A DNA stretch of 64,000 nucleotides, taken from NCBI RefSeq assembly GCF_000698595.1, contig NZ_JFHC01000008.1, positions 62,001-126,000 on the forward strand, given 5' to 3'. Of this stretch, positions 37,844 to 47,578 are shown piece by piece. How positions within the stretch are numbered: the first letter of the stretch is position 1; every line of letters starts with the position of its first letter. The DNA is from Caballeronia glathei. GTDB lineage: Bacteria; Pseudomonadota; Gammaproteobacteria; Burkholderiales; Burkholderiaceae. Under the pieces are notes generated by a model. The model saw only the letters and a program-made list of their open reading frames with translations, was not told the DNA's origin and did no database searches. The position numbers and the translations under genes are program-made.

Positions 37844-40467
<2,624 letters not shown>

Positions 40468-46820: not shown

Positions 46821-47209
46821 GCGAGTCCTTTCAGCGTTCTTCGATCTTGCGCCGCGCGGTGACGCCTGTCGTGCTTCGTGCATCACGCGCGGCATGGGTC
46901 TTTGTGTTCGTTGCGACCTGCGCCCCTGGCCATTCGACATACACGCCGACATGCACGCATATACGCGCGCGGGCGGGCTCTGGACGCCCTTTCGACGCAA
47001 TTTCGCGCCTCCAGGGCGATTGCGGCCTCCGATCAACCGCGAAGTTTGCCACACAATCCGGTGTGAACCCGCCATCGCCGCCTCGGCGCGGGCCCCGGTT
47101 GAGAAAGCCGTGACGCTGAATTGGTTCAACCGGACGGGCGCGAAACGCGCGGCCGGACGGGCTTCGCGTGCCCGCGATGCGCACTTTTTTCAGCGAAGCC
47201 GCCATCGCC
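46821..47209. other. Long intergenic region between divergent lolC and the SOS-type gene, no gene recognised
   Basis: About 390 bases. Overlapping frames exist on both strands but have no recognisable protein features or good starts. The only regulatory signal noticed is at its right end (LexA box and promoter). lolC promoter elements should lie here on the minus strand but were not identified. Confidence 0.4.
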
Positions 47210-47229
47210 TATACTGTACATCCATACAG
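47187..47229 (+). promoter_or_regulatory. Promoter with LexA (SOS) operator
   Basis: -35 TTTTCA (47187-47192), 17-bp spacer, -10 TATACT (47210-47215). The LexA box CTGTACATCCATACAG (47214-47229) matches CTGT-N8-ACAG exactly and overlaps the last two bases of the -10 and the expected transcript start, the normal place for repression. The start codon follows 14 bases later. Confidence 0.8.
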
Positions 47230-47242
47230 TATTCCGACCGGC

Positions 47243-47578
47243 ATGAAGCTCCCCTCGTTCGCCGCGCCCACCCTCGCCGATCTGCGCGACTGGTGGCACA
47301 GGCATCCGCACCCGGACGTGCGCCGGCTGATCCTCGAGGTTCAGCGGCAGCGGCTCGAACTGCTCGAAACCCGCACGCTCTTCGACGAGGGCTTTCGCCA
47401 GGTCGAGCGCGACGCGCCCGCGCTGGCGACCAACGGCATGCCCCTTTCCAGGGTTCGCGTGAGGCTTGCAATCGAGATTCGCCGCGCGGGCGTGATCGAC
47501 GATTCGCCGAAGCCGAAACCGCCGCAAGTGGTGGATTTCCAGAGGATGGCGGCACACGGCAAGCCCGCGACCGATTGA
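47243..47578 (+). CDS. Uncharacterised small protein, probably SOS-inducible
   Basis: 111 residues, not recognised. ATG 47243 was chosen because it follows the promoter and operator; GTG 47168 in the same frame would put the LexA box inside the gene. The protein starts KLPSFAAPTLADLRDWW. A long helical, basic and leucine-rich middle (VRRLILEVQRQRLELLETRTLF, broken by RDAPALATNG) is followed by RVRVRLAIEIRRAG and a Lys/Pro-rich end (DDSPKPKPPQ). Net charge is positive and no membrane segment, signal or metal motif is seen. There is no strong Shine-Dalgarno sequence. No obvious partner gene is adjacent; recJ is 2.4 kb downstream. A nucleic-acid or inhibitor role is possible but unsupported. Confidence 0.7.
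   Translation: MKLPSFAAPTLADLRDWWHRHPHPDVRRLILEVQRQRLELLETRTLFDEGFRQVERDAPALATNGMPLSRVRVRLAIEIRRAGVIDDSPKPKPPQVVDFQRMAAHGKPATD

Follow-up and report, generated by a model that had tools for sequence, protein, structure and literature searches.

A mobile family of small proteins under predicted LexA control, often encoded beside SRAP genes in Burkholderiaceae and their phages

Introduction

SRAP proteins (YedK/HMCES) cap abasic sites in single-stranded DNA by covalent crosslink. The crosslink formed by YedK is reversible, according to PMC9436759, and PMC3765255 describes SRAP as associated with mutagenic polymerases and as already noted in a Burkholderia prophage. Excerpts of PMC12926913 add that SRAP-like proteins occur with UmuC-like or Y-family polymerases, and that the small arm-bearing subunits of Y-family polymerases have only the N-terminal arm in common. 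A 2012 study of beta-proteobacteria predicted that the hypothetical genes hypA and hypB are under LexA control, hypB being said to be exclusive to Burkholderia (PMC3323433).

Here, a 111-residue gene under a LexA box in a 64-kb stretch of the Caballeronia glathei genome (the whole of which is termed the window) is assigned to an unnamed, predicted LexA-controlled family. The family shares its neighbourhoods (SRAP, UmuDC, ImuA and DNA ligase) and its SOS setting with the SRAP/YedK/HMCES cassettes outlined in the accessible text of PMC3765255, although it is not itself SRAP, and that text makes no mention of it. Among the papers searched, some of them available in part, none was found that names the family or reports its phage and plasmid spread or its linkage to SRAP. 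It could be that hypA or hypB, as far as the available portion of PMC3323433 describes them, is a family member, in which case LexA control of that one member had already been predicted.

Results

Promoter of the window gene

An exact LexA palindrome overlapping a TATACT element, a start codon and a 111-residue open reading frame had been proposed from the sequence, and the positions of all of them were confirmed (Table 1), with 13 bases between the end of the box and the ATG at 47243. The palindrome as such carries little weight. The pattern CTGTN8ACAG occurs once in the window against 0.33 expected, and at least once in 28 of 100 window shuffles; across the 8.6-Mb genome it was found at 44 sites, compared with 45 for a reversed control pattern, so the bare consensus is weak evidence for a real LexA box. 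A chance palindrome was kept open at first on account of this equality and was then rejected, because the exact box is conserved before homologous genes; it is on that conservation, and not on the consensus alone, that the window box is judged to be real. When extended, the window site agrees with 17 of the 20 bases of a longer consensus, a score reached in 0/100 shuffles. Some boxes elsewhere in the genome adjoin ORFs that we take to be recA, lexA, dinB and imuA-like, indicating that this type of site is functional in this genome.

Table 1. Coordinates of the features discussed, numbered within the window
Feature	Position	Strand	Remarks
LexA (SOS) box CTGTACATCCATACAG	47214..47229	.	CTGT-N8-ACAG; conserved in homologous loci
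-10 element TATACT	47210..47215	+	overlaps box; majority sequence over 61 distinct boxed promoters
Putative -35 TTTTCA	47187..47192	+	17-bp spacer to TATACT; low confidence
111-aa protein P0001 of an unnamed, predicted LexA-controlled family	47243..47578	+	stop TGA ends 47578; pI 10.3
Accessory segment	46821..48875	.	between lolE-like gene and PGM-like gene upstream of recJ (presumed names)

The -10 element finds support in the family, with TA at its start in 36/61 distinct boxed promoters. The initial annotation had also pointed to a TTTTCA -35 at 17-bp spacing; it is present, but homologues lend it no support, as at least four of six matches to TTGACA were seen in 9/61 family promoters against 218/2120 random positions, a lack of clear enrichment that leaves the element at low confidence.

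The 16-mer of the window box recurs at two further places in the genome, C26 and C43, the latter copy preceding an imuA-like ORF. At G000:C26 (L023 2965-3240, box at 37977) the identical 16-mer immediately precedes or coincides with the start of a small Cys-containing ORF without a Pfam match, which is possibly a further unnamed SOS gene. Another LexA box (L021 around 2981, G000:C14:88480) is located between a divergent small ORF and an ORF that presumably resembles CsbD.

Conservation of the box

Conservation of the box upstream of orthologues had been named as a check on the original proposal, and across homologues it proved to be strong. The exact box lies at -25 to -34 in 80/83 testable homologous loci, with distances taken from match starts without use of the box and at least 45 bp of upstream sequence per locus; a further five loci lacked that length, L181 and L208 were excluded as their matches lack the N-terminus, and the set includes a few duplicate records (KS9 and Mana, each twice). 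The three loci without a box are L189, L192 and L200. In a partly overlapping set (L032, L071-L173), where the choice of start made use of the box, 72/106 genes have an exact box no more than 60 bp before the start, compared with a box of at most one mismatch near 27/2080 random positions. The rest of the 106 comprise three genes with a one-mismatch box, ten with an exact box 75-800 bp upstream (six ahead of imuA and four in one subclade) and 21 with none, for some of which the true start is unsure. These 21 include eight genes of one subclade (L086, L087, L091, L092, L098, L102, L113, L116), two whose upstream sequence is truncated or disrupted (L093, L105), one whose box carries an extra base (L157) and one that represents the 3' part of a broken gene (L082).

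The consensus of the 61 distinct boxed family promoters is TATACTGTATATcCATACAGTAtT, from which the window differs by one base. A box that overlaps the promoter and a box conserved upstream of homologues, both of them used as criteria for the LexA/SOS regulon, were found. LexA control of the family is therefore strongly supported by its promoter sequences, and its members are probably DNA-damage-inducible.

Several further features of these promoters were observed. The core of the box is asymmetric, ATCCAT being the majority form, and a Shine-Dalgarno-like triplet occurs in 13/61 promoters, most leaders having none. In the subclade of L154, L156, L158 and L159 the domain starts with MPLNPRPS and an exact box is found 333-336 bp upstream of that start. 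In three Paraburkholderia loci (L189, L192, L093) sequence that resembles the 3' end of a group II intron stands in place of the LexA box; the sequences of L189 and L192 stop 127 bp ahead of the gene.

The protein and its relatives

Searches of Pfam, NCBIfam, PADLOC and PDB with P0001 and relatives returned nothing significant, in agreement with the original description of a protein unlike known families. PHROGs v4 does contain a relative: phrog_17852 (213 positions, annotated as unknown function) is a tandem two-domain member of the family, matched by P0001 over positions 1-90 at 1.7e-14, by all 8 members of alignment A1 and by a 215-aa form at 1.7e-85, whereas the 155-aa L140 and L154, two of 8 forms scanned, did not match it. 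Family proteins consist of a single domain, a tandem (203-217 aa), or a domain with an additional N-terminal region, roughly 70-80 aa long. A profile of this region from the 155-aa form matched the 146-aa L143 at 1e-18 and a further 155-aa form, L142, at 3e-13, and matched eight forms of 138-175 aa weakly, from 0.0017 to 0.035.

In an alignment of 37 rows hand-chosen for diversity, R15, W18, R28, L29, L31, E32, R37 and R81 are conserved in at least 90% of rows, and the N-terminal stretch reads LPxFxPPTLxELRxxW. The protein had been described as basic and helical. The first of these holds (Table 1). The second holds for two of the four conserved segments, the central ones (residues 24-42 and 39-58), in which hydrophobicity peaks at a helix-like 105 degrees, but not for the first and last (residues 10-20, peak at 120 degrees; residues 67-84, peak at 155), where helix is not the best fit; on these periodicities the fold would be mainly helical.

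Basic character is general in the family, 76/102 members having a pI over 7.5, and this bears on the proposal that the protein modulates RecA or LexA in the manner of DinI or PsiB, tuning the SOS response or shielding the single-stranded DNA of plasmids and phages. DinI and PsiB are acidic, unlike most of the family, and no significant profile match was obtained. Some family copies lie near plasmid partition or replication genes, as might be expected if the protein counteracted the SOS response on mobile DNA, yet overall such a modulator seems improbable.

Translesion polymerase subunits are a further point of comparison. Pfam includes a YolD model, to which the family has no significant match, and polymerase genes are less frequent than SRAP as neighbours of the family. 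With respect to ImuB-C, the family gave no significant Pfam match, Pfam coverage of this domain being uncertain. The ImuB-C domain is modelled as a beta-barrel in the excerpted text of PMC12926913, in contrast to the two helical-looking central segments found here. Like the YqjX/YolD subunits as presented in the same excerpts, the family is small and SOS-linked and has, ahead of its first predicted helix, a conserved N-terminal stretch that contains Pro; the LPxFxPPTLxELRxxW stretch is accordingly a candidate N-terminal arm, by resemblance only.

Distribution and selection

A homology search of the 111 residues had been suggested at the outset and uncovered a diverse family in Burkholderiaceae genomes, plasmids and phages. 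With P0001 as the single query, 9/58 genomes of the genus Caballeronia matched, including its own; one of the eight other matches, L037, was discarded for four stops. An eight-row profile matched at least 116/398 Burkholderiaceae genomes (roughly three in ten) from 10/25 genera, a lower bound in that about 11 first-look candidates were scored in most genomes, and a count that contains some matches with stops. The 37-row profile applied class-wide matched 1/369 genomes, that of P0001 itself; about 12 candidates were scored per genome and Pseudomonas plasmids do match, so this figure is not proof of absence. Plasmid records matching the 109-aa L040 form (E up to 0.01) number 89, from Pseudomonas (81), Caballeronia (4) and Paraburkholderia (4), with 3/89 covering at least 80% of the query.

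Paraburkholderia homologues are 42-44% identical to P0001. A homologue is present in P. xenovorans LB400, among others. Purifying selection is evident among them, with a median dN/dS of 0.077 (range 0.03-0.22) over 105 pairs, a value taken on 15/17 full-length Paraburkholderia homologues and not on the window gene. In the tree P0001 occupies a long branch at an open fork and is not placed as an ortholog of the Paraburkholderia clade.

The 155-aa form is present in 49 viral contigs and matches six records of three named Burkholderia phages, KS9, Mana and Magia. P0001, the 109-aa L040 form and the tandem L112 form found no match among named phages, viral scans with four other family members yielded no relatives, and none of 160 pattern stretches obtained for P0001 in GTDB-220 contigs was confirmed.

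This viral occurrence raises the question of a phage-type antirepressor or lysogeny switch that lifts prophage repression upon damage and has been captured by chromosomes and plasmids. Tum of phage 186 is a LexA-controlled small protein of this kind; the exact box is present in 45/45 viral contigs with enough upstream DNA, and 17/49 viral matches start 0.7-0.9 kb from a contig end, which speaks for such a role. Against it, members of the family are also encoded after imuA with umuDC alongside, on plasmids, and alone on chromosomes, where they are subject to purifying selection, while the three annotated phages have SRAP or an SRAP-like gene as the divergent neighbour and no repressor annotated beside the gene. 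The antirepressor is consequently rated an unlikely explanation for the family.

SRAP and translesion neighbours

SRAP is divergent to the family gene within 400 bp in 44/59 viral contigs, a count from which L181 was left out because its match lacks the N-terminus. The remaining 15 comprise one SRAP at 478 bp, one convergent SRAP and 13 contigs with none, of which four have at least 900 bp of flank and nine have less. The neighbour is annotated as SRAP in phages Mana (gp62/gp63) and Magia (gp36/gp37), with a single box in the 76-bp spacer between the two genes in Mana; in KS9, gp27 is divergent to gp28 and SRAP is detected there by tblastn (viral contig L210). An annotated SRAP also lies beside the family gene on a P. 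ginsengisoli plasmid.

Beyond the viral contigs, tblastn matches to SRAP (E up to 1e-5, some partial) occur in 47/103 fetched loci. Gene by gene (n=106), the nearest SRAP is within 400 bp in 27 cases (14 divergent, 6 overlapping, 5 convergent and 2 on the same strand), farther away in 21 and lacking from the fetched locus in 58. In Caballeronia, 13/75 SRAP matches are no more than 4 kb from a family member against 0.06 expected, strong housekeeping-type matches having been left out of the 75. SRAP nearness is clustered on a tree of 111 rows (0/500 shuffles as low) and is at the same time scattered over both halves of that tree, forcing at least 13 changes. No SRAP was found in the flanks, some of them short, of 27 Paraburkholderia/Burkholderia loci (26 titled Paraburkholderia and one Burkholderia sp.).

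Translesion genes form the second recurrent neighbourhood. On plasmid pSBC2-6 the family gene directly follows imuA, with H-NS, SRAP, Y-family polymerase, umuD and ligD genes nearby, and it follows imuA in six further loci (L076, L078, L080, L081, L082, L089). An exact box is located 743-755 bp upstream of the family gene, ahead of imuA, in 6/7 of these, L080 having none.

The undescribed SOS effector originally envisaged was offered as a division inhibitor, nuclease regulator or repair accessory. The SRAP, ImuA and UmuDC neighbourhood favours the last of these; nothing was found in favour of the other two. As to a division inhibitor that is SulA-like in role, the gene is small, basic and LexA-boxed and phages encode division inhibitors, but Pfam and NCBIfam, which include a SulA model, gave no significant match and hence no SulA-type curated family, and the linkage runs to SRAP and translesion genes. 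Such a role is very unlikely.

The window copy and its locus

The adjacency to SRAP is a property of the family and is not shared by the window gene: no SRAP match was found in the 64-kb window, and three SRAP genes are present elsewhere in the genome. The lolE-like gene that borders the accessory segment occurs in 58/58 genomes of the genus. Neither the window gene nor its downstream neighbour was matched in the 1500 bp upstream of lolE in 29 congeners, where the PGM-like match begins 138-400 bp from the lolE start in 15/29, at 982-1363 bp in 11/29 and is absent from that stretch in 3/29; the corresponding distance in the window is about 2.06 kb. The absence of the gene at the lolE of congeners and the variable spacer indicate that the gene is accessory in its own lineage and sits in a variable insertion spot. 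A shared chromosomal position was considered and rejected, since no window flank matched L071-L173 by blastn.

In some congeners (L308, L325) the same spacer contains what we presume to be a toxin-antitoxin pair. Together with the patchy distribution of the family, this would suit selfish cargo that rides on the SOS response and plays no part in repair, such as a toxin or addiction gene. The purifying selection on the Paraburkholderia homologues and the recurrent linkage to SRAP and imuA speak against this, and a conserved antitoxin-like neighbour was not noticed in an unsystematic look, making selfish cargo a decidedly poor candidate.

Discussion

The comparison of homologous sequences supports a family that is under selection as coding, with repeated SRAP and translesion linkage and a presence in phages and plasmids; damage induction, and an accessory function with SRAP or Y-family/ImuA modules, are what we infer from this pattern. 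The reading we favour, and consider somewhat probable, is that the family is a mobile, LexA-repressed accessory of the SRAP/translesion lesion-tolerance machinery. Upon DNA damage, RecA-driven cleavage of LexA would free the promoter whose -10 is overlapped by the box and allow synthesis of a protein that is small, basic and largely helical. This protein may bind SRAP, a polymerase or the damaged strand and so help to shield or bypass abasic lesions, its proposed partners being chiefly SRAP, with the translesion modules (ImuA, UmuDC) in addition. Being solitary, the window gene would need to work in trans, with SRAP or polymerase genes located outside the window.

More tentatively, the family could be a dedicated SRAP partner that uses the LPxFxPPTLxELRxxW stretch and its helical core to dock on either a Y-family polymerase or the SRAP-DNA crosslink, and that determines whether an abasic site is shielded or bypassed in an error-prone way; temperate phages and plasmids would carry the pair, arranged across one LexA box, as a means of withstanding abasic-site damage, and lone chromosomal copies would use the SRAP and polymerases of the host. 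To our knowledge it would be the first such partner proposed in bacteria. The SRAP linkage could also come from shared mobility and shared regulation and not from physical partnership.

The analysis describes a LexA-boxed family without a significant Pfam or NCBIfam match in at least about three in ten of 398 Burkholderiaceae genomes and in their phages. The data suggest that the cargo of temperate phages includes an SOS-induced module for abasic sites. Given its frequent adjacency to SRAP, the family may represent a new contributor to DNA damage tolerance, and a small protein whose gene often faces that of SRAP over a common LexA box is a directly testable candidate for the link between the handling of SRAP crosslinks and translesion synthesis.
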